Assembly: GCA_030065175.1 (NCBI GenBank)
Contig: JASJDH010000003.1
Coordinates: 1-47,467, forward strand
Direction: 5' to 3'
Origin: Leptolyngbyaceae cyanobacterium MO_188.B28
GTDB taxonomy: Bacteria > Cyanobacteriota > Cyanobacteriia > Phormidesmidales > Phormidesmidaceae
DNA length: 47,467 nt
Positions 1,745-47,467 of this stretch are shown here, in pieces (the stretch's first letter is position 1; the number at the start of each line of letters is the position of its first letter). The notes under the pieces were generated by a model. That model saw nothing but the letters and a program-made list of their open reading frames with translations. It made no database searches and was not told where the DNA came from. Made by a program: the position numbers and the translations under genes.

Positions 1745-2854
1745 TTGTCGAATCCATTAATCAATCGACCTGTTCATGGGGGGAATTTAGTCTGGGCTGC
1801 TTCGCTGTCGGGGTGTTCCCCCTCTGATCTATTAGATTTTTCAGCTAGTATTAATCCTTTAGGGCCGCCTGAATCTGCGATTCAGGCGATACAAGCTCAT
1901 TTACCTCAATTAACTGTCTATCCCGACCCTGACTACAGCCGATTGTGCGCCGTATTAGGGGAGATCAATGATTTACCGCCCGACTGGGTTTTGCCAGGAA
2001 ATGGTTCTGCTGAGCTACTGACCTGGGCCAGTCGGGATTTTGCGTCTTTAGCCGCGACCTATTTCTTAACACCTGGTTTTGGGGATTATGGACGGGCGCT
2101 TAGGTCGTTTGGAGTAGAGGGGATAGGGTGCCCCTTAGAGTTAGAGAATGGGGAATCGGGGGCGTGGAGTGATGGGTTGGAAGCTGTGTTGAGCACTCAA
2201 CAAGTCGATCCAAAGCGGTGTGGGTTGCTGTTGAATAATCCCCATAATCCCACCGGACGACTTCTTCCCCAGGATTCTATCCTGCCCTATCTGGATAAAT
2301 TTGCCTTGGTGGTGGTGGATGAGGCGTTTATGGAGTTCTTGCCGCCCGATCGTCGGCAAAGTCTAGTCACCCAAATTGTCGATTATCCTAATCTGGTTAT
2401 TCTGTGCTCTTTAACCAAGTTTTACAGTCTACCTGGGTTGCGATTGGGATATGCGATCGCCCATCCTGATCGGCTTCGACGTTGGCGACAGTGGCGGGAT
2501 CCTTGGCCAGTTAACGTCTTAGCGGCGGCGGCGGCGGAAGCGGTTCTACACGATCACGCCTTTCAACGCCGGACGCGGCAGTGGATGGAGCAGGCTCAAC
2601 CTGAACTTTTTCAAGGGTTGTCTCAAATAGCTGGGCTGCGTCCCTTTCCGAGTGCGGTCAACTTTTTGCTAGTGGGGTGCGAATCATCCAGTTCCTATCT
2701 TCAGCTGCAGCTGCTCAAGCGGCATCGCATTTTGATTCGCGACTGTCTCAGCTTTCCAGAATTAGGAGATCGCTATTTTCGGGTCGCTGTTCGTTCGGTG
2801 TCAGAAAATTACAAACTCATTCATGGCCTCACGGAGATTTTAAGCGACTGCTAG
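1745..2854 (+). CDS. cobD: PLP-dependent aminotransferase fold, CobC/CobD type (threonine-phosphate decarboxylase-like)
   Basis: A 369-residue fold-type I PLP enzyme. HGGNLVWAA and LLDFSASINPLGPP at the N-terminus are typical of the CobC/CobD branch next to histidinol-phosphate aminotransferases. CobD makes the aminopropanol-phosphate arm of cobalamin from threonine phosphate. Visible motifs are LLLNNPHNPTG, VVVDEAFMEF and the cofactor-lysine loop SLTKFYSLPGLRLGY, with Lys225 as the expected Schiff-base residue. The start is a TTG; no in-frame ATG gives the conserved N-terminus. It lies eight bases after hup, which suggests readthrough. Histidinol-phosphate aminotransferase is the main alternative, but the SLTKFYSLPGLR motif and N-terminus favour the cobalamin family. 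Confidence 0.82.
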   Translation: MSNPLINRPVHGGNLVWAASLSGCSPSDLLDFSASINPLGPPESAIQAIQAHLPQLTVYPDPDYSRLCAVLGEINDLPPDWVLPGNGSAELLTWASRDFASLAATYFLTPGFGDYGRALRSFGVEGIGCPLELENGESGAWSDGLEAVLSTQQVDPKRCGLLLNNPHNPTGRLLPQDSILPYLDKFALVVVDEAFMEFLPPDRRQSLVTQIVDYPNLVILCSLTKFYSLPGLRLGYAIAHPDRLRRWRQWRDPWPVNVLAAAAAEAVLHDHAFQRRTRQWMEQAQPELFQGLSQIAGLRPFPSAVNFLLVGCESSSSYLQLQLLKRHRILIRDCLSFPELGDRYFRVAVRSVSENYKLIHGLTEILSDC

Positions 2855-3165
2855 CAGTCAGCTTTTTGATGGGGGTATAGGCAGACTCTACAGACGCCTC
2901 TAAACCCTGCGACTCCCTCTATATTAACCCAGAGTTCATGAAGTCTTAATTCTGCCTCTGTAAGATTACTCACTAATTGTGTAGGCTTTCAATAAAGGGT
3001 TCCTGATCGAAGCGAGCGTTTGCTTTAAGAACTCTTGTGGGTGTAACAAATTTCAAGTTTATTCAGAATAAATACGTAAATATCCTGGAAATTACGGAAC
3101 GAAGATTTGGCAAGCAATGTCTGCTTCCTTAAGGCTTTTATCCCGGTGTAACCCAATATCAGATA
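2855..3165. other. Gene-free stretch before the PilB-like gene
   Basis: This 311-base stretch has stop codons in all frames over any useful length, no strong hairpin and no tandem repeat. It presumably holds the promoter of the ATPase gene, but I cannot place one with confidence. Confidence 0.5.
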
Positions 3166-4845
3166 ATGCAGATTACTCCACCTCTCCCATCCGCATGGCA
3201 ACAGCTGAAACGAGGGGATATCAACTGTGAACAAGCGCTCAACCTGCTCAAGAATGAGCGGGGCGAACTGAATATCGAACGACTCGATAAAGAGGTTGTC
3301 ACTCGCTTTTTCCAGGTTTTTCCAGATCAAAAATTGCCCCCGGTGGCGCCCCTCTTGCTGTGGCAAAATTGTTACTATCTGGGTAGCCCGGTTACCCTAT
3401 CGGAAGAGACGGTGCAAACCCTGCGCGATCGCACCCGCACCGAAATCCAAATTATTCCCATCACCGCCAAATGCTATCGCAATTGGCACCATAGTCGGCA
3501 TTTCGACCCCAGTCGCATCCAAGTAGGGCCATTGTTGGATCCACTGACTGGGGAACTTACCGCTGAGGACATTGGCCAAACCACCGAACTCTCGTTAGCC
3601 AAGGCGGAAGGTCAGATTGAGCGGATTAAAACCATTATTTCCAGCGCCCTACGCCATCGCGCCAGCGACATCCATTTAGAACCCGCCCCTGAAGGCTTGA
3701 GGGTGCGCTATCGAATTGATGGGGTGCTGCGGGATATCACGATGCTGCCGGTTGAAGTCAGTCGTCGGGTGGTCGTGGCCCTCAAAGTAATGGCTGATAT
3801 GGATATCTCCGATAGCCGCCGACCCCAAGATGGACGCATTGGCGAACAATATACCCTGGATAATAAAGTCAAGCTGAGCATGGATATGCGGGTTAGCACC
3901 CTGCCCTGTGTGGGCGGTGAGAAAGCGGTGGTGCGCTTGCTCCCCCGCGAAAATCCCTTTTCCACCATTGCCAAATTGGGCTTTTCGCCGGAGGTGTTGC
4001 CGCTTTATAAGTCCTGGCTGCAACAGCCTCAGGGCATGATTATTTTCACCGGCCCGACTGGCTCTGGCAAAACGAGTACGCTTTATACCAGTCTGCAAGC
4101 GATCGCCACCGAGCATGTCAATGTCGTCACTGTTGAGGATCCGGTAGAGTACGTCTTACCTAGAATCACTCAAACCCAGGTGAATGAAGCGGCGGGGATG
4201 ACCTTTGCCGCTGGCCTGCGGGCAATTTTGCGGCAAGACCCCGATATTGTGATGGTGGGGGAAGTGCGTGACCATGAGACGGCGGAAACAGCTATCAGAG
4301 CCGCCTTGACGGGACATTTGGTATTCACTACACTCCACACCAATGACGCAGTGGGCGCTATTCCCCGCATTAAAGATATTGGGCCTGATCCTGGACTGAT
4401 TAGTGATGCGGTTTTGGGGGTTATTGCTCAGCGTTTAGTGCGCCGCGTTTGTCCCTGCTGTGCTGAACCCTACACCCCTCGCCCAAGGGACTTGAGCCTA
4501 CTTGGATTAGACGACAAAGCAGTGAATACGGCTAACTGGCTACGCGGTAAAGGCTGTCCTAAGTGTTTTCATTCAGGCTATTTCGGTCGAGAGGCTGTGG
4601 CCGAACTCATTGAAGTGGATGACCGTATTCGCGAGATTATCTACGATGGGGCCATTACTCAACTGCATCGCTATCTCCGGGAGATTAACTTCTTCAATTT
4701 CCGCAGAGCTGCGATTGAAAAGGTCACCACTGGTGTCACAACGGTTGATGAGGTGATCCGGGTCTTGCCCCGCACCGCTCTGTGCCGCCGTTCATCGAGT
4801 GAATCAGAGCCAATTCAGTTAGTGCAGCGATTTAATATGGGATAG
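3166..4845 (+). CDS. GspE/PilB-family secretion ATPase, short form
   Basis: A 559-residue hexameric motor ATPase of the type II secretion/type IV pilus extension family, acting on the cytoplasmic face of the machine. Walker A GPTGSGKT is at residues 296-303; the Asp-box and Walker B region (LRQDPDIVMVGEVRD) is near 355-367; the His-box region TGHLVFTTLHTNDA follows. A four-cysteine zinc site, CPCC (429-432) and CPKC (464-467), is present as in PilB and GspE. SALRHRASDIHLEP and VRYRIDGVLRD mark the N2 domain. The region before it is only about 150 residues, shorter than I expect for the main cyanobacterial PilB (around 670 residues), so this may be a second paralogue. It is not adjacent to pilT/pilC here. 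Start ATG is plausible; no clear ribosome-binding site precedes it. Confidence 0.85.
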   Translation: MQITPPLPSAWQQLKRGDINCEQALNLLKNERGELNIERLDKEVVTRFFQVFPDQKLPPVAPLLLWQNCYYLGSPVTLSEETVQTLRDRTRTEIQIIPITAKCYRNWHHSRHFDPSRIQVGPLLDPLTGELTAEDIGQTTELSLAKAEGQIERIKTIISSALRHRASDIHLEPAPEGLRVRYRIDGVLRDITMLPVEVSRRVVVALKVMADMDISDSRRPQDGRIGEQYTLDNKVKLSMDMRVSTLPCVGGEKAVVRLLPRENPFSTIAKLGFSPEVLPLYKSWLQQPQGMIIFTGPTGSGKTSTLYTSLQAIATEHVNVVTVEDPVEYVLPRITQTQVNEAAGMTFAAGLRAILRQDPDIVMVGEVRDHETAETAIRAALTGHLVFTTLHTNDAVGAIPRIKDIGPDPGLISDAVLGVIAQRLVRRVCPCCAEPYTPRPRDLSLLGLDDKAVNTANWLRGKGCPKCFHSGYFGREAVAELIEVDDRIREIIYDGAITQLHRYLREINFFNFRRAAIEKVTTGVTTVDEVIRVLPRTALCRRSSSESEPIQLVQRFNMG

Positions 4846-5183
4846 ATAAGTTAGCGTCTTGATTAATTTCAGTTGGTCAGGATGTTGTTTGTAATTGAGC
4901 GAGATAGTGCGTTCGCTTGATATCGCTATCTCCCGTGAAGAATATTGCATATAAAGCGTAAAACTCAATTCCGTCTGAGAATGCCCTATGTGATTTTGAT
5001 TTAGCTTTGACTTCTTGGGTGGGGAGTGGCCAAGATTATTACTGATTTAACTGATTTTTAATGTTGGATTTACCTCTATATTACCTCTATGTATAAGTAT
5101 TTATAAGGAGTCATTTTTTGTAGATACTCATTGTGTCTAATCCTTTTTCAATAGGGATTTCTCTTGAGTTTATTGCATCGCTT

Positions 5184-32570: not shown

Positions 32571-35500
32571 ATGGCGCTGCCAGCACCTCCACCCGCTCAA
32601 AGGATTCTACTAGTTTTCAAGGGTTCAATCGTGACTTCCGAGAAGGATCAAATTCAAACATTGATTGCCGAGATCGAAACGTTCTTGAGCAAACCTACCC
32701 CTCGGTTACCTTGGGGGAAGGTCGGCGACGCGGACCCGCAACGCCAAATTTTGGCCAAAACACAACGCTACCTCATTGGTCTTCAGCAATCAATGCAGGC
32801 TCCAGGCGGTTGGGGGCCAATTGATCCGGAAACGGGAGCGCTGACGCCCAGCGGCCCCCCAACTCTCCCTAATCAGCTTTCAACCGAGTCGGCGCAGCAA
32901 GTGCTGCAAGCTTTTTTGCAGGAAATGCACTACCTACGCGCCAATTTACTCCAACCGTTACGGCTTGAAATCGATGCGCTGCATGAGCGGCGACAAACCT
33001 TGCAGCAGGAAGTGCAGCAGTTAGAAAATCAAAGTCGACAGGCAGGCGGCTCTCAGTCGGGGGATTCAAGGCAATTACTTAATGAGTTTATGGACGTGTT
33101 TATGGAGCGCCTCCAGCAGAGTCTAGCCGCTCAAATTGCCCAAGCCTTAACCCAGCTCAGGAGTGACGCCGCGAATAATTTGCTGCTGGAAGAATTCTTA
33201 GAGGCGGATGTTGCTGCTGCGGATCGCCCCCGTTTACACCCTGCTCAAAGACTCGACCACCTGCGAACCGTTCAATCCGAATCTGACCAATTGCTCCTCA
33301 AATTGGATTCAACCCTAAAGGTTGTCTTTGAGACGTTGGAAAAGAATGTCCAAAGCTACCAGGAGTCGCTGTCGCAGGGATTGTCTAAGATGCATGGTTT
33401 GGGCAGCCGGGGCGAAACCATCGTCACAGCGCTGATCACCCATCTGGCTCAACAACTGGGACGAGACACATCCGCATATCTGGACGCCAGCCTAGAGGCT
33501 GGCGCGGGGTCAGAACTCGGAGCCCTGTCAGGAAAATCAACTGTGCAAAATCGGCTGTTGGCTTTCCAGGAAGAGACTTCGCCTGGTGCGGCTGAGGATC
33601 CATCGCCTACCCCGGAATCTTGGGAGGCGCCGTTAGATGGTTTTGACAGCGGCGAATTGGACAGTGGGGAATTAGACTTTGGTTTGGACGATTTAGACCT
33701 CGATCTCGATATTGATATCGATGATGAGGATATGGGGCGTTTACTCGGTGATGCTGCTGACCCGTTAGCCTCTCTCGATGATGAGGATGGGGCTCTGGCC
33801 GCGGATGCAGATAGGGAGTCTACTCATCCGCATCCGCCTATCGCCATAACCGATACTGCACATCCAGCCGTCGAGCCTGCCGTTGATATCCTTAGCCAAT
33901 TAAGCGATGGCGGCCAGGAAATCGACGCAGCAGTTCCGAATGATTTACGAGATGCAGCGGCTCAACTCGATGTCTCCTCTAATCTGAAAGAACTGGATGA
34001 CTTTTATCAAAGTTTGTTTGGAGAAAGTGACGGCGAGTTAGGGGCTGAGGCCTCCACCCCGGCAATATCCGATCCTAAGGTGACTGATGCTGAACTTGGG
34101 CTGTCGGCCCCCTTAGACCTCGGGGAGGCGGTGAAGGAAGACGCAGGGTCGATGGTCGATGGGCAAACTGAGGCATTGATTCAGCCTGACTTAGAAAAAT
34201 CTGCTCTGGGGGATTTGCTGTTAGAGGCGTCTGCTGATTCTGGCCTGTCCACTCCTCCATCCTCTGAACAGGCTTTGTCTGGTCCATCGGAAGGATCTGG
34301 GCAATTAGGAGACGCCTCTGATCCGCAAACGATGATTGATTCTTTCTTCGGTGAAGTCGATTTCTCCCAACAGGCGGCGACCTGGGAAGCTGATTCTACG
34401 CCCGACACGATTTCCGCCTTGACTGATTTACTGCCAAAGGGAAAGGTTGACTCCGCCAGGTTCCTGGCGCAAGACACTGGAGAGGCGGCGCCGGAAGGCG
34501 TTGACTCTCTAGATATCGAACTATCGGAAGATTTGAGCGCTTCAGGCTGGGATGGCGACGCGTACATACCAGCGCCGCCAGAAGAAGACCTGCTGGCGAA
34601 GGAGGATCCCGCAGAAGAATTGGGGTTGAATCTAGATTTAGTGGATTCCGCCTTGCAAAAACTGATGAATGAGGAGCTCTCTAGTTTGGAAGGGGTTGAT
34701 CTGACTAAGCCGTCGGATCTTGACCAGGCATTTGCAGCGGATTCATCTTCGGATCAACCGTCAGAATCAAGTCCTCAGCCTGAGGGGGCGGGAGAGACTT
34801 CGAATCAAGCTCTGTTGGAAAGCATTGTTCAGGAGCTAGATATTGCTGATGCGCTGTCAGATTTGGAAACGGAGGGAGAAGCCGGACTAACCCCGCAAAA
34901 ATTGATCGAAACTGAGATCCAGCAAGCGACCGCAGGGCCGGTCTCCTCTAGTGACGCTGAAGACATTACAGACACTGAAGATATTACGCTAGAGGCTCTG
35001 GAAGAGTTGATTTTGGAAGATTTGGCTCCCCAGCTTGATCGCTTGTCCGCTCTATTGCCTCCGGTTGTGGCTGAGGATTTAGGGTCATCAGAGAATTTGG
35101 GCCTAGACGAGCTAGTTGAGGATTTGCTGGACGCCTCTAAGGTTGACTCAATTCCAGCGGATGATATCGAAGCCAGGCTGCTCCTTTCAGATGAGGAAGA
35201 TCCAGACAGGGAAATTGATGGTATCGAAGAAGGATTGAGTTTACAGAATGTGCTTGAGGAGGCAGTCGCCTCGAGCCAACTGGCCCCTTCAGTAGAGGCG
35301 GTTGAACTGACGCTTGAGTCTTTAGCGGCGCTGACTTTAGAAGATTTGGCGTCTGGCGATGAGAGTGAGGCCGCCCTCGAAGTAGAGGCGGGGGGCGAAG
35401 CGGATGACGGCTTCAGCCCTGAAGAGGGTATGGATCCTCAACTTGATCCCGCTTCAGAAAAGTCTGCTCCGGATATAGAACCTGGGGATGCGAGTCTAAG

Positions 35501-38078
35501 TTCTCCCTCTGCGCCTGATATGTCTGCGCCTCCTGAACAGGGAGCTGAGGCCCGAATTACATCGCCTGGGGAAGAAAGTCTCTCTGAGTGGACTCAATTA
35601 GAGTCTGCTTTAGCGCCTGATTCTCCTGATTCGGACGCCGATTTGGAATCGGCTTTAGCACCCGACGCCTTTGATGGGGTTTTTGATGATGTTCTGGATA
35701 TAGAGGGCGATTTAGACTTGGGGGCTGAGCCTCAGAGTTGGCCAGTCCATCCGCAGCCCCCTGGGGATTCTATTGCAGATGATGTGACCGATGATGATGA
35801 GTTAGAGGCTTTGCTAGAGGACGCTTTAGCTGAAGAACTCCCAGCTGCGGACTGGACTCCAAGAGAGGTGGCTGAACCCGTTGCTTACCGGGGAGGGGAC
35901 GCCCTAGACTCAACTCGGGAAGAGCCGCTAGAAACCCCGGGGGTAAAGCTTTCCCCTGAGGCGGCCGCCTGGATTGAAGAAGCGCTTAAGATTGATGGGG
36001 ATGATCTGGGGAGCATTGATGCCGCAGATGCTGCGTTAACTGAAGTGGAATCTGAAGCGGAATCTGGGCTTAAGGCGGTGGAGAATGGTCCTCCTGTTGA
36101 GCCTGCTGAGGAAGCAGAATTGCAGCAGCAGTGGTTTTTGGGGATTGATTTGGGGGGGACTGGACTGTCGGCGGTGTTGATGGATAGGGTTGAGGGGAAT
36201 GCGTATCCCATTTACTGGGTTGCTGAGGATCCGCCAGAGGCGACTGGCCCGGCTGAAAAACTATTTCGCCTGCCGGTGATTGCTTATCTGACTCAAACTG
36301 CTCCTGCAGCCGATCCGGCGCTTTCCCACCAATCCTTGGGTCTGCAGCTAGAAGCAGTCGGTCCTGGAGCGCTGCGAGTCGCTCTGGATGACTATGCCGA
36401 CGTTCCGGAGGGAGGGGGTGTCCATTCAATGCCGCCCGGATTACTTTTGCGATCGCTGAAAACCCTTCTCAAAGTGGGCATTCCCTTCTATGCCCCGCAG
36501 CAAGAAGCGTGGGAGCCGATGATTCAATGGTCTGACTCTCAACAGCTTCCGCTTCAGTTGGTTCATGAGAGCCTCCGAGCAATGCTGCACACCTTGTGGC
36601 CGCTCGACCCGCCTGGAAATTTGGACGCATCTAGGCCCGCTCTGGCTTGCGGGGCCATCGGTCTAGATGCTTACGGGTTTAAGCGGGCGTTAGAAACCCT
36701 CCAGGGCGTTATCGTGGGTTATCCGGCGAATTGGCCAGACACCTACAGCTTCAATATTCGAGAAGCATTGTTAGCCGCTCAGCTCGTCATCCACCCCGAA
36801 CAAATTTTCTTCGTTGAAGATGGCATCGCCGCCGTTTTGTCAGGATTACCCGATCCGAATGCGGACTTATCCCCTCAACCCCCTCACCAGCAAGGACTGT
36901 ATAACTGCGACTGGCAGGGAGGCACAATTGTGGTCAACGGCGGCGCCAGTCTGACCGAGCTGACCGTCGTCGATATTCCTGACAACTTAGAGGGGGTGAC
37001 CTACGGGGATTTCTCCTGCCGGAGTTTTCCCTATGCCGGTGACGCCATTGATCAGGATATTATCTGTCAATTGCTTTATCCCCCTGCCTATCGTCAATCA
37101 CGCGAAGCCGCCGACCCTGTGGCCGTCCCCGCTGCTGACGGCTGGGCGTGGCAAGCCGATCTCCCTGAATCCGCCCGAACTGACTGGCAAAGTTTGGGGT
37201 TGGAGTCTATGGAGCTGCCTAGGCCAGGGGAGCCTGGCGGGGCCAATCGACACCGTCTGCAAAAGCGGCTAGAAGATTCCTTATTGGGGCAGAGCCTGTT
37301 AGAAGCCGCTCGACATTTAAAATTAATTCTGCAGCATCAGCCCCAGTGCAAACTTGAATTGGGAGACCAACAGTGGCTCATTCGTCGCAAGGATATGGAA
37401 AGTCGCATATTTTTGCCCTATATTCAGCGGGTCAATCGCCAGCTCAATATACTGCTGAGTCAGACTGGCTTCTCTTCCCAGGCGATTAACCAGGTGATTT
37501 GTACAGGTGGGTCCGCTTCCCTAGCCGCGATCGCCCGCTGGCTGCGACAAAAATTTCCCAACGCCACGATTATTCAAGATACTTATCCTAGCGATCGCCC
37601 CGCCAGCTGTAGTCGGGTTGCCTATGGCCTGGTCAATCTGTCTCGCTATCCTCAGGTGTTAGACATGGTTCGCCAGCAATATAGCGACTATTTTCTATTG
37701 CTGGAGCTTATTCGTCACTTCCCCGAGCAGCCTTTGCCTATAACGGGAATTATGCACCTGCTCGAGAGTCGGGGAATCAACACCAAAGTCTGCTACAGTC
37801 ACATTCTGGCGTTGCTGGAAGGCCATTTACCCCCAGGACTTATCCCCACGGAGCCAGATTTGCCCTGGATGACTCAACAGTCTTTAGACAATGGTGATTA
37901 TCAGTCCCTTGGATCGCCCCCTCTGTTCACCAAGCAAGGGAAACAGATTTACATTCCCAATCTCACCCAACGACAGCGTCTTAGCGACCATTTAGAGGGG
38001 TTAATGGCTGGCAAACACCAGACATTGGAAGAACCGTTGATTGCTCAGTTAGCTCCCGTGTTTTTGGGGCGATCATAG
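32571..38078 (+). CDS. 1835-residue acidic protein with C-terminal Hsp70-like ATPase domain
   Basis: Three parts. Residues 1-330: helical, with a glutamine-rich coiled coil (ERRQTLQQEVQQLENQ). Residues about 332-1185: very acidic low-complexity sequence with few Lys/Arg and recurring leucine/acidic blocks (LDDLDLDLDIDIDDEDMG; LEALEELILEDLAPQL; LESLAALTLEDLASG; LESALAPD twice). Residues about 1188-1690: an actin/Hsp70-fold ATPase with phosphate-1 LGIDLGGTGLSAVL (Asp1193), an Hsp70-like IVGYPANWPD, phosphate-2 VVNGGASLTEL (from 1454) and adenosine motif CTGGSASL (1644-1651). The last 150 residues contain a possible winged-helix segment. No Hsp70 substrate domain follows. Phosphate-2 has Asn1456 in place of Asp, so hydrolysis may be slow or absent. 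The LysR gene starts 81 bases downstream. Confidence 0.85.
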   Translation: MALPAPPPAQRILLVFKGSIVTSEKDQIQTLIAEIETFLSKPTPRLPWGKVGDADPQRQILAKTQRYLIGLQQSMQAPGGWGPIDPETGALTPSGPPTLPNQLSTESAQQVLQAFLQEMHYLRANLLQPLRLEIDALHERRQTLQQEVQQLENQSRQAGGSQSGDSRQLLNEFMDVFMERLQQSLAAQIAQALTQLRSDAANNLLLEEFLEADVAAADRPRLHPAQRLDHLRTVQSESDQLLLKLDSTLKVVFETLEKNVQSYQESLSQGLSKMHGLGSRGETIVTALITHLAQQLGRDTSAYLDASLEAGAGSELGALSGKSTVQNRLLAFQEETSPGAAEDPSPTPESWEAPLDGFDSGELDSGELDFGLDDLDLDLDIDIDDEDMGRLLGDAADPLASLDDEDGALAADADRESTHPHPPIAITDTAHPAVEPAVDILSQLSDGGQEIDAAVPNDLRDAAAQLDVSSNLKELDDFYQSLFGESDGELGAEASTPAISDPKVTDAELGLSAPLDLGEAVKEDAGSMVDGQTEALIQPDLEKSALGDLLLEASADSGLSTPPSSEQALSGPSEGSGQLGDASDPQTMIDSFFGEVDFSQQAATWEADSTPDTISALTDLLPKGKVDSARFLAQDTGEAAPEGVDSLDIELSEDLSASGWDGDAYIPAPPEEDLLAKEDPAEELGLNLDLVDSALQKLMNEELSSLEGVDLTKPSDLDQAFAADSSSDQPSESSPQPEGAGETSNQALLESIVQELDIADALSDLETEGEAGLTPQKLIETEIQQATAGPVSSSDAEDITDTEDITLEALEELILEDLAPQLDRLSALLPPVVAEDLGSSENLGLDELVEDLLDASKVDSIPADDIEARLLLSDEEDPDREIDGIEEGLSLQNVLEEAVASSQLAPSVEAVELTLESLAALTLEDLASGDESEAALEVEAGGEADDGFSPEEGMDPQLDPASEKSAPDIEPGDASLSSPSAPDMSAPPEQGAEARITSPGEESLSEWTQLESALAPDSPDSDADLESALAPDAFDGVFDDVLDIEGDLDLGAEPQSWPVHPQPPGDSIADDVTDDDELEALLEDALAEELPAADWTPREVAEPVAYRGGDALDSTREEPLETPGVKLSPEAAAWIEEALKIDGDDLGSIDAADAALTEVESEAESGLKAVENGPPVEPAEEAELQQQWFLGIDLGGTGLSAVLMDRVEGNAYPIYWVAEDPPEATGPAEKLFRLPVIAYLTQTAPAADPALSHQSLGLQLEAVGPGALRVALDDYADVPEGGGVHSMPPGLLLRSLKTLLKVGIPFYAPQQEAWEPMIQWSDSQQLPLQLVHESLRAMLHTLWPLDPPGNLDASRPALACGAIGLDAYGFKRALETLQGVIVGYPANWPDTYSFNIREALLAAQLVIHPEQIFFVEDGIAAVLSGLPDPNADLSPQPPHQQGLYNCDWQGGTIVVNGGASLTELTVVDIPDNLEGVTYGDFSCRSFPYAGDAIDQDIICQLLYPPAYRQSREAADPVAVPAADGWAWQADLPESARTDWQSLGLESMELPRPGEPGGANRHRLQKRLEDSLLGQSLLEAARHLKLILQHQPQCKLELGDQQWLIRRKDMESRIFLPYIQRVNRQLNILLSQTGFSSQAINQVICTGGSASLAAIARWLRQKFPNATIIQDTYPSDRPASCSRVAYGLVNLSRYPQVLDMVRQQYSDYFLLLELIRHFPEQPLPITGIMHLLESRGINTKVCYSHILALLEGHLPPGLIPTEPDLPWMTQQSLDNGDYQSLGSPPLFTKQGKQIYIPNLTQRQRLSDHLEGLMAGKHQTLEEPLIAQLAPVFLGRS

Positions 38079-42082: not shown

Positions 42083-44506
42083 ATGACTGCCATGCAACTT
42101 TCCAAACTGACAACTCAGGATTTGAATTGGGGGAAGGCGATCGATCGCAATGTTCTCATTGTCAGACCTGAAACCGCCCTGCTTGAAGTCATTGAGAAAA
42201 TGGATCAAACCCAGGCGAGTTGCGCCTTTATCGTGGAGGCTGACCAATTGATGGGGATGTTTACAGAGGGCGATGTTGTCAAACTTGCAGCGGCGGGCGC
42301 CAAGTTTTCCGAGATTGAGGTTGACGCGGTCATGACCCGAAATGTGAAGCCTCTCCTGCAATTGGGGGGGGAAAGTCTATTGACTGCATTAACTTTGCTC
42401 AATCAGCATTGTATTCGCCACCTCCCAGTCGTGGGTCAACAAGGACAGCTTTTAGGCGTCATCACCCCCGCCAGCATCTGTCAATTCCTGGAGACCTTCC
42501 CCCAGCAGTCAGTGTCACCTAGACAACTGCGATCGCCCCTAGAACATTTAAATGGGGATCTAACTCAGATGAATGCGCCGATAGACGCTCAGTCATGGGA
42601 AAACCACGGGGGTTTCTGGGTTGCGCCTGAAAATCTAATCCAGACAATTTCTGAGGGTGAAAATGGACAGACATTCTTGCATCAAACCAACACCGAATTA
42701 CAAGCGATTCTCAAAGCCTTGCCTGACGCCGTCGTCGTGCTGGATGAGGCCGGTCAAATTCAAAGGGTCAATCAGGCCTTCCTGCAATTGTTCGGCTACG
42801 CTGATGATGAATTGCTAGGCCGCTCTACTCGACTGTTATACGTCACGGTTGAGGACTATGAAACGCAGGAACGGCGCAGAGATAATCTAAACCTTCAGGG
42901 GCCGCTCAAATCCTATGAAATGCATTACCTTCGTCGGAATGGAGACCAGGTTGTCAGTGAAACAACCGAGGCGCCGCTCAAAGATGATCAAGGGCGCATC
43001 ATCGGTTGCTTGATGTTGATTCGGGATATTAGCGATCTCAAACAGGCCGAAGCTGATTTGAAGCAGTATCGTGAACGTCTAAAGCTTAGAGTCATCTCCC
43101 GCACGGCTGAACTCACCCAGGCGAATCAACTGTTACAGCGTGAAATCAATGAGCGTCAGCAGATAGCAGCTTTTCTGAAGGATCAAGCTGAATTAGAAAA
43201 GCTCATCAGTGACATTTCTAATCAATTTATCAATTTGCCCCTTGATGGGGTGGATCAAGGAATTGAGTCGGCTCTACAGTCTATTTGCGAGTTTATGAAA
43301 GCGGATCGGGGTCATGTCATCCTAAATTCAGACTCCGGCAAAACCGATTGCGGCCTCTACGTCTGGAGTGCGCCAGGCATAGACGCCCCCCAACAGAATT
43401 TGCAAGCAGGCTTGCTGAGCGGCGGCGGTCCTTGGATAGACTGGCAACTTGAGCAGTTTGGCGTCGCCCGTATCTCCTCAATGGCCGATTTACCAAGGGA
43501 CGCCAGCGCCGAAAAAGCTCTGTGTCAGAGGGATGGCGTCCAATCTTTGGTGGTGGTGCGCATGGTTTATGGGGGGACGCTAATGGGATTGCTCAGCATT
43601 GAGTCGCTCCAAAGGGAGAAAGACTGGAGCGCCAAAGACATTACGCGATTGAGGCTGATCGCTGAAACTTTCGCCAGCGCCTTAAAGCATTGCCGCAGTC
43701 AGGGGGCGTTGGTGGAACGCACCCGAGAGCTAGAAAGGTCGAATGCAGACCTAGAACAATTTGCCTATGTGGCGTCCCATGATTTGCAGGAACCGTTGCG
43801 AGCGGTGACGAGTTACGCCCAGTTATTATCAAGACGGTATGCCGGTAAACTTGACGCCAAAGCGAATAAGTACATTGGGTATATCGTAGATGGCGGTAAC
43901 CGCATGCAGCAACTGATTCAGGATTTACTGAATTACTCTCGAGTAGGGACAAGGGGCAAGGCGTTTCAATCCGTCCAAGTGGATAAGGCGATCAGTCAAG
44001 CATTAACAAATCTAGCGATCTCCATTCGTCAGTCTGGAGCCAGAGTGACCGTCGACAGTTTGCCAACGGTCATGGCTGATGAAAGTCAGTTGAGTCAACT
44101 GCTGCAAAATTTAATAGGTAATGCGATCAAATTCCGGGGAGAGGACTGTCCCCAGATTTATATCTCAGCTGTGCGCCAAAAGGATGGCGAATGGCTGACT
44201 GTGAATGGCGCAATCGTTCCTGACCTATCTCCCCTATCCCATCCTTGCGTTAGGATGCAATGGCTATTCTTTGTTAGAGATAATGGGATTGGTATTGAAC
44301 CCAATTATGCTGAACGCATTTTTACCCTCTTCCAACGTCTCCACACCCGTCGGCAATATCCAGGCACTGGAATAGGGCTAGCCATCTGCAAAAAAATCGT
44401 AGAGCGTCACGGCGGCCAGATTTGGGTTGAATCAGAATTAGGAGTCGGCTCCACTTTCTATTTCACCATTCCAATGAGTTCACCGTTAAGTTCACCGTTC
44501 CAATGA
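42083..44506 (+). CDS. Sensor histidine kinase: CBS pair, PAS, GAF, HisKA, HATPase
   Basis: An 807-residue soluble histidine kinase; no transmembrane segment. Order: paired CBS domains (about 20-145; DAVMTRNVKPL, RHLPVVGQQGQLLGVIT), PAS (about 205-325; PDAVVVLDEAGQIQRVNQAF and LIRDISDLKQAE), coiled coil, GAF (about 385-545; ADRGHVIL), HisKA with phosphoacceptor His566 (YVASHDLQEPLRAVTSY) and HATPase (LLQNLIGNAIKFRG; VRDNGIGI; GTGIGLAICKKIVERHGG). CBS domains usually sense adenine nucleotides, so energy status could be an input. The phosphorylation domain is of the phytochrome-like ASHDLQEPLR type. It converges with a single-domain response regulator nine bases away, its likely partner. The C-terminus carries a 12-bp tandem repeat. 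Confidence 0.93.
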   Translation: MTAMQLSKLTTQDLNWGKAIDRNVLIVRPETALLEVIEKMDQTQASCAFIVEADQLMGMFTEGDVVKLAAAGAKFSEIEVDAVMTRNVKPLLQLGGESLLTALTLLNQHCIRHLPVVGQQGQLLGVITPASICQFLETFPQQSVSPRQLRSPLEHLNGDLTQMNAPIDAQSWENHGGFWVAPENLIQTISEGENGQTFLHQTNTELQAILKALPDAVVVLDEAGQIQRVNQAFLQLFGYADDELLGRSTRLLYVTVEDYETQERRRDNLNLQGPLKSYEMHYLRRNGDQVVSETTEAPLKDDQGRIIGCLMLIRDISDLKQAEADLKQYRERLKLRVISRTAELTQANQLLQREINERQQIAAFLKDQAELEKLISDISNQFINLPLDGVDQGIESALQSICEFMKADRGHVILNSDSGKTDCGLYVWSAPGIDAPQQNLQAGLLSGGGPWIDWQLEQFGVARISSMADLPRDASAEKALCQRDGVQSLVVVRMVYGGTLMGLLSIESLQREKDWSAKDITRLRLIAETFASALKHCRSQGALVERTRELERSNADLEQFAYVASHDLQEPLRAVTSYAQLLSRRYAGKLDAKANKYIGYIVDGGNRMQQLIQDLLNYSRVGTRGKAFQSVQVDKAISQALTNLAISIRQSGARVTVDSLPTVMADESQLSQLLQNLIGNAIKFRGEDCPQIYISAVRQKDGEWLTVNGAIVPDLSPLSHPCVRMQWLFFVRDNGIGIEPNYAERIFTLFQRLHTRRQYPGTGIGLAICKKIVERHGGQIWVESELGVGSTFYFTIPMSSPLSSPFQ
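44477..44500. repeat. 12-bp in-frame tandem duplication at the 3' end of the kinase gene
   Basis: AGTTCACCGTTA (44477-44488) is followed by AGTTCACCGTTC (44489-44500), coding for the Ser-Ser-Pro-Leu / Ser-Ser-Pro-Phe tail. Confidence 0.9.
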
Positions 44507-44515
44507 CGCCGCCGC

Positions 44516-44935
44516 TCAGCCTACGTTCTGCGACACGGTTTTATCCTCAAGCAGCCGACTGACGATTCCCAATAAATAGTCAGGAGAAATAGGCTTCTGA
44601 AGCGCCATATCGATCCCCATTTGGTTAGCTACATCTAGCGGGGTGCTAGCCATGTAACGGCTCCGCCTGAGCCCACTAACGCCAATAATAATCGGCTGAA
44701 CTTTATTCATTAACTTCAGTTTTGCGATTAAATTCAAGCCCCCCTCTGGCATTGTTTTGTTCCCTCGTTTGACGAGCATATCAACAATCACTAAATCCGG
44801 TGGGGTTGACTCAGTTATCTTAATTGCCTGCGGTATCGTATCGCATTGTTGAACAGTATGGTGCGCCGCTTCTAGGCGTTGTCGCCAGTGGAGCGCGAGC
44901 GGTAGTTCATCTTCAAAAATCAGAATGTTAGCCAT
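44516..44935 (-). CDS. Single-domain response regulator
   Basis: A 139-residue CheY-like receiver without output domain. The acidic pocket is in LIFEDE, the phosphoacceptor is Asp52 (LVIVDML), Thr/Ser switch region is IIIGVSG, and the conserved lysine is Lys114 (ALQKPIS). Between Asp52 and the switch region there is a short insert (VKRGNKTMPEGGLN) typical of some cyanobacterial receivers. Its gene converges with the CBS-PAS-GAF kinase gene, whose histidine it probably receives phosphate from, or passes it to another phosphotransfer protein. Confidence 0.9.
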   Translation of the reverse strand: MANILIFEDELPLALHWRQRLEAAHHTVQQCDTIPQAIKITESTPPDLVIVDMLVKRGNKTMPEGGLNLIAKLKLMNKVQPIIIGVSGLRRSRYMASTPLDVANQMGIDMALQKPISPDYLLGIVSRLLEDKTVSQNVG

Positions 44936-45490
44936 GATATTTTGTGAATCGAGCGAGTGATGAGTTAAAGGTAGGTTTAATGAATATATATATAGGGTCG
45001 ATGGGAATTCCTAAACTATCCCAGTCACAGCTTTTTAACAGGCGCGAATCGAATTGTGAGTTGTTCCCGCCACGTATAATTTAAGGCCGCACACTTGCAT
45101 AGAAGACGAATTCATAGCGAACAGTTCCTTGCCGGTAAGGTGCTTGAAGATTCACGTGTTTTCAGGAAACTAGCGTTTCATACAGTATTGTCCCTCATTC
45201 GAGTTTAGCTTGCCCGTAAAATTGGAGGATCTAAACCAGATCCCTGAATTTTGAGGACGCTTGCTGTTGGGGGCAATCAACCTATCGAATAATTGAAGAG
45301 GGTAAGGTGATTTCTGAGAAAGAATTTACCGCCTTTGCCGAGATGATTCCTGCCCTGAAATATATTCAGCCGATTTATTTGGTAATTAATTTCCTGGAAA
45401 TCACCTAAACCGTCAAGTGTGTCGTTTAATGGGTGAGTCGCTCTTAGGAAAGCGTCATGATTGTCGGCGTTGATTTAATTAGTATGACGC
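44936..45490. other. Gene-free stretch with a possible gene remnant
   Basis: About 555 bases. A plus-strand open frame at 45235-45408 without ATG, TTG or GTG near its start reads like real protein (IIEEGKVISEKEFTAFAEMI); it could be a remnant. AGGTGATTTC (45305-45314) and GAAATCACCT (45397-45406) form an inverted repeat exactly around its GTG-to-stop segment. Confidence 0.35.
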
Positions 45491-47467
45491 TTAACTGTTT
45501 AGAAGCTTGCTGATGGTTGTGTCAAGCGTTGTTGCGTCGATTGGCTTCTTGAGGAGAGGATAGCGTTGAAGTTGATCGGGAATGACATGATAGGACTGAT
45601 AGCCGCTGGTAAAAATGAAGGGAATTTGCTTCGCCATTAAGGTCTGGGCGATTTCAAAACTCGTTTCTTGCTTGAGATTAATATCGAGTAAACAAATCCG
45701 ATATCGATTCTTCTCCATTAGTTTGAGGGCGCGGGCGGTGCTGGGGGCGCAATCAATGGGTTCAAATCCTAAGTATTTGAGAATGTTTTCCATCTCCATG
45801 GCGAGCATTATGTTGTCTTCAACCACAAGCGCCGTCCCCTGTGTATAGTCAGCCGATGTCTCAGGGAGAGCATTTGCAAGGGAGGATGAGGCGGTTAGGT
45901 TGCGTCGAAATTCTTTTTGTTTAGGTCGCCACTGTATGAGATGGCGAGGCAGCCAAAAATCTGCCTCGACTCCTGAGGGATTGAAGCGGAGGATGGTTTC
46001 CCCTTCAAATTCGTAGGGAATGGCTCGTTCAATCAGCGTAAGCCCAAAGCCTCTATGTTTAGGTTCTTGCACCAGAGGGCCTTGGGCTTCTCTCCAGTGG
46101 ATGCATAATCCTTCATTTCTTTCAAACCATTGAACGGTCAATCGCCCCTGCGATGTTGACAGAGCCCCGTACTTGGCCGCATTAGAAATTAGCTCATGTA
46201 GGACTAAGACAAAGGTGGGAATGAAATTCGCCTTGAGGCCAACGTCTTGGCCGAGGAGTGTGACCCGAGATTCTGAAGCCATTGAGTAGGGTCGAAGTTC
46301 CGTGGTGATCAGTTCATGCAGGGTTAACCACTCCAAGCCATGTTCTGCGACGAGATCATGAGCCATGGCGAGGGCCGCGATCCGACTTTCTAGTAGATTT
46401 GCATAGTCAGGTAGAGACGTGGTTGACGCCTGAGTTTGTCGAGCGACCGAGCGAATCAAAGCCAGGACGTTTTTAACTCGATGGTTAAGCTCTGCGACTA
46501 ATAAATCTTGCCGCCGCTGTTGGAAAAATTGAGCCCGATCGACGGCGTAGCGAATCAATTGAGTTTGCAGCTCGTGCGCCGCTGTTAAGTTGTAACTTGA
46601 CCAAGGGTGGCAATGTCCTCTAACCGTCTCTTTGTATTCCTCAAAGGAGGCTCTGGGACAGAGTCGAGGGCCTAAGGACGTATCTACGATTGTTTTTTTC
46701 TCTGGGTTGCCTGCCCAGCGAATTTCACGAATAATCTCGTTTCTGAAAAAGACGACATGGGATAATTCGGTCAAGGATAATTCTATGATTAAAGCGCCTG
46801 CGCTAATGTCCCAGTTCTGTATTGTATTCGGACCCGTCTGTTGAAGATTGTCGATTTTTATGATGTTTGGTTTGATGTCGGTGTGGTGGGTCTTGACTAG
46901 GGTGACAATGGCGGGTTGCGGGGGGACTTCTCCGTAGGTCGTAATCCCTTGACTAGACACAAAAGCAACGCCATGGGCGGAGAAGAGTTGACAGAGTTGA
47001 GATTGGATATCCATCGCCAGCGTCTGCCAATTTTCGCTGTCCAATTGTGCAACCAGAATATTGGCGATCTCCGCCGCTGTGCGTCGAAGATCGTGGACGT
47101 GCGCTGCAGACAACCTCTGCTGGAGAAGCAGCGAAAATAAGCGGCCAAACAATTCAATCGTCGAGCGGAAAGCCGGGGAGAGTAATTTGGGCTGCCTGTG
47201 ATGAAATGCGAAAAGTCCCCATAGTTCACCGTTCAGAAGGATTTCCAAGGTCATGCTGGCTTCGATCCCCATGTTCGCCAGGTATTCTAAATGGAGGGGG
47301 ACGACACCGCGTACATGGGTCAAAGAGAGATCTAGAGGCTGCTCCGTCCGATCAAAGGCCAGTAACTGAACGGGGTTGGCGTGAATGTCGGGAATGACTC
47401 GGAGGGAGATTTTGAGGGCCAGGTCTCGCACTTGCTCCGGGACATCGGCGGCGGGGAAACGGAGGCC
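45491..47467 (-). CDS. Bacteriophytochrome-like light sensor, C-terminal part, with HWE kinase and receiver (5' end outside window)
   Basis: The frame is open to the window edge, so the start is missing. Reading inward: end of a phytochrome GAF domain (RFPAADVPEQ, then VVPLHLEYLANMGIEASM), PHY domain (GLFAFHHRQPKLLS; tongue motif CPRASFEEYKETVRGHCHPW), an HWE/HisKA_2 kinase (ELNHRVKNVLALIRSVARQT; HELISNAAKYGALS; HWREAQGP; GFGLTLIERAI) and a C-terminal receiver (LVVEDN; LLDINL; lysine in LLKKPID). The GAF position that carries the bilin cysteine in Cph1-type phytochromes is Leu here (PLHLEYL), so a biliverdin-type cysteine in the N-terminal PAS region, outside the window, is expected. PAS-GAF-PHY-HWE-REC is a known but less common phytochrome design. 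Confidence 0.92.
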   Translation of the reverse strand, partial: GLRFPAADVPEQVRDLALKISLRVIPDIHANPVQLLAFDRTEQPLDLSLTHVRGVVPLHLEYLANMGIEASMTLEILLNGELWGLFAFHHRQPKLLSPAFRSTIELFGRLFSLLLQQRLSAAHVHDLRRTAAEIANILVAQLDSENWQTLAMDIQSQLCQLFSAHGVAFVSSQGITTYGEVPPQPAIVTLVKTHHTDIKPNIIKIDNLQQTGPNTIQNWDISAGALIIELSLTELSHVVFFRNEIIREIRWAGNPEKKTIVDTSLGPRLCPRASFEEYKETVRGHCHPWSSYNLTAAHELQTQLIRYAVDRAQFFQQRRQDLLVAELNHRVKNVLALIRSVARQTQASTTSLPDYANLLESRIAALAMAHDLVAEHGLEWLTLHELITTELRPYSMASESRVTLLGQDVGLKANFIPTFVLVLHELISNAAKYGALSTSQGRLTVQWFERNEGLCIHWREAQGPLVQEPKHRGFGLTLIERAIPYEFEGETILRFNPSGVEADFWLPRHLIQWRPKQKEFRRNLTASSSLANALPETSADYTQGTALVVEDNIMLAMEMENILKYLGFEPIDCAPSTARALKLMEKNRYRICLLDINLKQETSFEIAQTLMAKQIPFIFTSGYQSYHVIPDQLQRYPLLKKPIDATTLDTTISKLLNS

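Follow-up and report, generated by a model that had tools for sequence, protein, structure and literature searches.

A 5'-truncated HWE-kinase bacteriophytochrome gene in a Leptolyngbyaceae cyanobacterium and an adjacent receiver gene proposed as its partner

Organization of the locus

The window, that is, the whole analysed stretch of 47,467 nucleotides, corresponds to an entire contig (G000:C313) of the assembly of Leptolyngbyaceae cyanobacterium MO_188.B28 and stops at base 47467, inside the GAF domain of a phytochrome gene that also encodes a histidine kinase of the HWE class and a C-terminal receiver domain. Full-length cyanobacterial orthologues of this phytochrome comprise 847-883 aa. 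Behind it lies a small gene encoding a single-domain receiver (Table 1). The intergenic gap was considered as a repeat element and rejected as such, being not multicopy in the genome. An earlier note on this DNA, made from the sequence alone, had given the coordinates, the strand and the open 5' end of the phytochrome gene correctly, the frame running into the contig end. Among the other genes of the window, a kinase with CBS-PAS-GAF-HisKA architecture (42083-44506) converges on the receiver gene at a distance of 9 bp, genes for a secretin and a type II/IV secretion ATPase (49-1089 and 3166-4845) are perhaps pilus genes, and an 1835-aa open frame (32571-38078) has no Pfam match at 1e-5.

Table 1. 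Features of the phytochrome and receiver genes in the window
Feature	Coordinates	Strand	Evidence or remark
HWE bacteriophytochrome, 5'-truncated by the contig end	45491..47467	(-)	658 aa of expected ~850
GAF, C-terminal part, residues 1-112	47132..47467	(-)	Pfam residues 41-112; residues 1-40 by alignment
PLHLEYL motif, with Leu in place of the Cph1 cysteine and the pocket His and Tyr conserved	47279..47299	(-)	Alignment
PHY domain, residues 135-310	46538..47065	(-)	Pfam PHY 7.9e-40
PHY tongue, WAGNP ... PRASFEEYKE, with clade-marking Tyr278	46628..46717	(-)	
HWE histidine kinase (residues 326-510) with phospho-acceptor His329 and the ATPase part	45938..46492	(-)	Pfam HWE_HK residues 326-407; remainder by alignment
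Fused receiver, E550 D551, D595, K641	45515..45829	(-)	Pfam Response_reg residues 547-651; invariant columns
Gap between phytochrome and receiver gene, 555 bp	44936..45490	.	Single copy in the genome, save for a 29-bp and a 33-bp match
Single-domain receiver encoded separately (139 aa), the putative cognate partner, with D9, D52 and K114 conserved	44516..44935	(-)	Pfam Response_reg 1.4e-8

Besides the PHY domain, Pfam recognizes in the phytochrome the HWE kinase (HWE_HK, PF07536, 3.1e-22), the fused receiver (Response_reg, 5.9e-9) and the partial GAF domain (2.3e-5), and the GAF and PHY matches bear out the earlier reading of a GAF end followed by a clear PHY tongue; the NCBIfam BphP model gives 155 of 1040 bits, far under its cut-off. 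Residue-level comparisons were made with 67 sequences selected from the fetched loci, comprising 9 cyanobacterial HWE phytochromes, 42 other HWE phytochromes and 16 HisKA phytochromes, with Aurantimonas-like sequences thinned. Pocket residues are identified by the numbering of other phytochromes. The leucine noticed earlier in PLHLEYL, at the position of the Cph1-type cysteine, is Leu58; the His and Tyr that come after it are conserved, and so is the Asp in the PASDIP-type motif. Among the HWE sequences, Leu, Ile or Val is the usual residue at this site. The kinase had likewise been recognized as HWE rather than HisKA, and by alignment it carries the marks of that class, the N-box His424 and W458-x-E460. 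W458 and E460 occur in 51/51 HWE sequences and His424 in 50 (Asn in one), and none of the three is found in the 16 HisKA sequences. All 16 of these match Pfam HisKA, and four (L021, L022, L029 and L040, all cyanobacterial) also have a fused receiver.

GAF (partial here) and PHY domains with the pocket Asp, His and Tyr and a PRxSF tongue, together with the absence of a bilin cysteine from the GAF Cph1 site, mark the protein as a bacteriophytochrome, and the GAF cysteine plus HisKA kinase typical of Cph1 are both lacking.

Relatives and distribution

Among plasmid records, the best-matching protein comes from Acaryochloris sp. 'Moss Beach' (49.7% identity over the full frame); full-frame identity amounts to 49.7-52% for six cyanobacterial loci (Moss Beach, G003, G028, G033, G211 and G234) and to 46% for G217. 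At E<=1e-80, orthologues were detected in 7/388 sampled genomes of the class and 4/63 genomes of the family, the MO_188.B28 genome included in both counts, and in 3/29 genomes of the family of G234. A peptide-pattern scan yielded Leptolyngbya PCC 7375, Adonisia turfae, Leptolyngbya cf. ectocarpi, an Acaryochloris metagenome-assembled genome and Hyella patelloides among 80 loci, a sample biased to the query because just two patterns were used and 80 of 86 loci were kept.

The window gene is a member of a known, rare and already published group of cyanobacterial far-red sensors. According to the available text of PMC4901347, AM1_5894 of Acaryochloris marina MBIC11017 clusters with proteins of CCMEE 5410 and Leptolyngbya PCC 7375, and the HWE kinase and receiver were noted there; covalent binding of both biliverdin and phycocyanobilin depends on Cys11, as examined also with the C11S variant, and the biliverdin adduct photoswitches between a Pr ground state at 705 nm and Pfr at 758 nm. 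The window protein shares with this cluster the domain order, the HWE kinase, the fused C-terminal receiver in a cyanobacterium and the lack of a GAF cysteine, and the Leptolyngbya PCC 7375 protein (L048) falls in its clade. It differs in being about 50% identical to its relatives, in its missing N-terminus and in the distance to the partner receiver.

Phylogeny and gene transfer

In the tree of the GAF-PHY region, the nine cyanobacterial HWE sequences, with the Acaryochloris and Leptolyngbya PCC 7375 proteins among them, form a single clade (support 100/97), which is nested in a clade of 31 sequences (100/100) that also contains Planctomycetota, Myxococcota, Bacteroidota, Actinomycetota and some Pseudomonadota. 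Their nearest neighbours are Planctomycetota, Myxococcota and one Robiginitomaculum metagenome-assembled genome (92/87, not starred). The tree of the kinase-receiver region, built from the 51 HWE sequences with no outgroup, recovers the cyanobacterial group (98/94), joins it to the same neighbours (99/94) and separates 20 alphaproteobacterial sequences from the same 31 clade members by a branch with 100/99 support. Because many of the neighbours are metagenome bins, any single phylum label is weak.

The tongue residue follows this division. The Tyr that the earlier note had picked out in FEEYKE, where Trp is common, is Tyr278; it is present in 9/9 cyanobacterial HWE sequences, and Tyr or Phe in 22/22 other clade members (31/31 together). 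It marks the clade but is not exclusive to it, since the Lewinella-group sequences have Tyr too (3/3). The 20 remaining HWE sequences, labelled Agp2/AtBphP2-type by layout (Agp2 itself lies outside the set), have the same PAS-GAF-PHY-HWE-receiver layout as the window protein but belong to the separate clade and have Trp in 19 cases and Phe in one. Cph1/Rcp1 and the other ordinary cyanobacterial phytochromes resemble the window protein in that 4/13 also have a fused receiver, but they fall apart from the cyanobacterial HWE sequences in another clade of the sensor tree, with HisKA in 13/13 and tongue Trp in 13/13. The clustering with ordinary Cph1-like proteins that would speak against the earlier proposal was thus not observed in the sensor phylogeny, and the suggestion that the gene was acquired by transfer agrees with the position of the nine cyanobacterial sequences as one clade amid other phyla. 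That this phytochrome has been shared between phyla by gene transfer, from whichever donor and in whichever direction, is well supported by the trees.

The available text of PMC4422448 proposes a flavobacterial donor for the A. marina HWE phytochrome gene and places HWE phytochromes, besides A. marina, in Bacteroidetes and Proteobacteria only. Flavobacterial (Polaribacter-type) HWE phytochromes share the HWE kinase and fused receiver with the window protein, and the five Bacteroidota clade sequences also have a separate receiver; they are, however, not sister to the cyanobacterial sequences in our trees, and grouping these five with the cyanobacterial sequences was rejected (p-AU 0.00048) in a post hoc test on a set that did not include Polaribacter. 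Our trees call into question both the published donor and the published phylum range, as given in that part of PMC4422448.

Among alphaproteobacterial plasmid HWE phytochromes, L006, L129, L130 and L133 have an annotated heme oxygenase gene directly upstream. A 197-aa frame upstream of a Pirellulaceae phytochrome (L052) was considered as a heme oxygenase and discarded, having no Pfam match at 1e-5.

The separate receiver gene

Orthologues of the window receiver were found near the phytochrome in Moss Beach, three g3 genomes, G234, G217 and Hyella. A profile built from seven of these with a second search round, and applied with no overlap filter, detected a separate receiver (E<1e-6) near 29/31 clade phytochromes vs 0/20 other HWE and 0/16 HisKA phytochromes, counts that are to be read with a profile drawn from the clade, the sensitivity of which leans to the clade although it still catches fused receivers at about 1e-4, and with loci flanked by 1.5 kb, beyond which a receiver gene would escape. 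The two clade members without a nearby receiver are L046 and L090. Among the detected receivers, the match at L055 is weak (1.8e-8, across two short frames), that at L061 lies inside a 775-aa frame and that at L047 is divergent. Weaker matches, from 2e-6 to 5.5e-3, were obtained at L128, L129, L132, L020, L023, L034, L038, L122, L125 and L127. A separate small receiver gene near a phytochrome gene is also the arrangement of Cph1-Rcp1.

In an alignment of 20 of the 29 receivers, Asp52 and Lys114 are invariant (20/20), and E8 and D9 nearly so. Distances between receivers correlate with those between the phytochromes (r 0.81 for the sensor and 0.77 for the kinase, n=29), with 0/2000 permutations reaching as high a value; this indicates shared inheritance rather than contact, as co-inheritance of a cassette gives such a correlation with no interaction. 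The receiver tree does not match the phytochrome tree, because it separates the two Acaryochloris receivers from the remaining six cyanobacterial receivers. In eight chosen genomes, the receiver accompanies the phytochrome in 6/7 cases and was not found in G001, a genome of the same genus with no phytochrome of this type. The exception is G211 (locus L046; 87% complete), in which no receiver was found near the phytochrome or elsewhere in the genome. A search of 72,556 plasmid records at 1e-5 returned Moss Beach as the sole match, an NCBIfam search gave nothing specific, and the solved structures matched (best 60 of 192) are generic receivers. At L139 (G234), a multi-PAS HisKA kinase (1941-4400) and a small receiver (4563-4988) lie convergently on the side where the window has its CBS-PAS-GAF-HisKA kinase.

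The small receiver might be an unrelated neighbour or a hitch-hiker, the fused receiver being the only phosphoryl acceptor, as in the published HWE phytochromes, which, in the available text of PMC4422448, have their receiver fused in one polypeptide, other bacterial phytochromes having separate ones. The gap of 555 bp, the divergent orientation at L047 and the failure to find the receiver in G211 speak for it, or at least against a fixed partnership. It is nevertheless a doubtful explanation: the active-site residues of the receiver are kept, and hitch-hiking would hardly persist near 29/31 clade phytochromes under six phylum labels. The separate receiver is read here as a putative dedicated phosphoryl acceptor, which would make this a two-receiver system. 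The broader proposal, that the clade has been spread across the six phylum labels by transfer as a two-gene cassette and uses a fused and a dedicated separate receiver at once, is about as likely as not.

The adjoining separate receiver is apparently a new observation for this phytochrome group. The terms 'response regulator' and 'operon' are absent from PMC4901347, and no paper title addressing a separate receiver in this group appears in the searched literature (including the available parts of PMC12362586, PMC11021371, PMC4422448, PMC13259208, PMC9415938 and PMC11633204), which mostly excludes subscription papers, so a prior description is possible.

Chromophore binding and ground state

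The PAS cysteine cannot be read in the window gene, because the contig ends in the GAF domain and searches of the assembly did not recover the N-terminus. It is present in 8/8 cyanobacterial HWE orthologues covering the site, the ninth cyanobacterial sequence being the truncated window protein, in 19/22 other clade members (3 gaps), in 19/20 remaining HWE sequences (1 gap) and in 12/16 HisKA sequences. All nine cyanobacterial HWE sequences (9/9) retain the Asp, the two Arg, the His and the Tyr of the pocket. In the Hyella patelloides orthologue (L071, 4001-6652), Gln replaces the PRxSF Arg and the GAF motif (FHTQHYL) contains an extra residue. The window phytochrome very probably binds a bilin. 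The earlier suggestion of a biliverdin-type photoreceptor is supported by orthology, through the eight PAS cysteines and the biliverdin binding of AM1_5894 at that residue; an exclusive preference does not follow, because AM1_5894 also binds phycocyanobilin in vitro.

The window protein is unlikely to be a bathy phytochrome, one whose ground state is Pfr, as in the Agp2 type, which has the HWE kinase and fused receiver too. The structure 6g1y, that of bathy Agp2, is among the solved structures close to the window protein in sequence. Among known bathy phytochromes, the majority have an HWE kinase, and glycine at PRxSF-8 is a bathy trait, if neither exclusive nor universal (available text of PMC12362586). 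The window protein, however, has Thr263 at this position, its WAG-to-PRxSF tongue stretch is one residue longer than in L006 and L063, it lies outside the group of 20 alphaproteobacterial HWE sequences (Agp2 itself being outside the set), and the ground state of AM1_5894, which belongs to the same cluster, is Pr (available text of PMC4901347). A Pr ground state is favoured, although it may not carry over to the window protein, since its tongue is one residue longer than that of L045 (G234, 847 aa), taken as the A. marina type, and the residue at PRxSF-8 differs.

Still less probable is that the gene is a remnant, its N-terminus truly lost or broken and its product blind to light. The gene start is indeed absent from the assembly, which has 650 contigs and is an estimated 83% complete: a PAS_2 profile search matched only the phytochrome on contig C355, and the first 219 residues of an orthologue gave 27 matches, the missing N-terminus not among them, of which the best is the C355 protein at 35% and the others are GAF-like stretches in other frames and the end of the window's own contig. 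The break, however, falls where the contig stops, the frame of 658 aa is open, and the catalytic and pocket residues that were examined are conserved. The C355 protein, the genome's second phytochrome (L001 427-2805, about 13.3-15.6 kb of G000:C355), has a PAS_2-GAF-PHY-HisKA-HATPase architecture with Cys at the Cph1 site, a second Cys in the usual pocket-His column (DPCCIEYHTNMGVKALL) and Asp at the PAS-cysteine column, a pattern unusual among the 67 sequences.

That the contig is contamination and the phytochrome not cyanobacterial is highly improbable: the estimated contamination of 4.88% and the lack of both genes in the same-genus genome G001 would fit it, but chlB lies on the contig (14921-16447), making a photosynthetic, cyanobacterial origin credible, and the nearest relatives of both phytochrome and receiver are cyanobacterial.

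Proposed mechanism

The protein is probably a bacteriophytochrome of the AM1_5894 type, with a Cys-PAS-GAF-PHY sensor, an HWE kinase and a fused receiver, that belongs to a transferred gene pair and works as follows. A bilin, most likely biliverdin, would be attached to the N-terminal PAS cysteine predicted from the orthologues. Red and far-red light would toggle it between Pr, the ground state, near 705 nm, and Pfr near 758 nm, values known for AM1_5894 only. The tongue would pass the change to the HWE kinase, leading to autophosphorylation at His329, and the phosphoryl group may then move to the fused receiver, the separate receiver or both, as their conserved active sites and co-inheritance suggest. 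More speculatively, output may be carried by the small receiver, with the fused one tuning or buffering the kinase. The gene pair would have entered cyanobacteria by transfer and been retained patchily.

Implications for far-red sensing

By its relationship to AM1_5894, the window phytochrome may have a role in far-red acclimation. The receptor for far-red acclimation (CA5) in A. marina is called undefined in the available text of PMC9415938, and AM1_5894 has been proposed for this role in that of PMC13259208; the accessible parts of these two papers and of PMC4901347 name no response regulator for the A. marina far-red receptor. If true, the two-receiver reading would contradict the fused-only rule for HWE phytochromes, as it appears in the available text of PMC4422448, and would identify the output step that is missing for the far-red sensor of A. 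marina. For that sensor, the receiver near 29/31 clade members is a concrete candidate partner.
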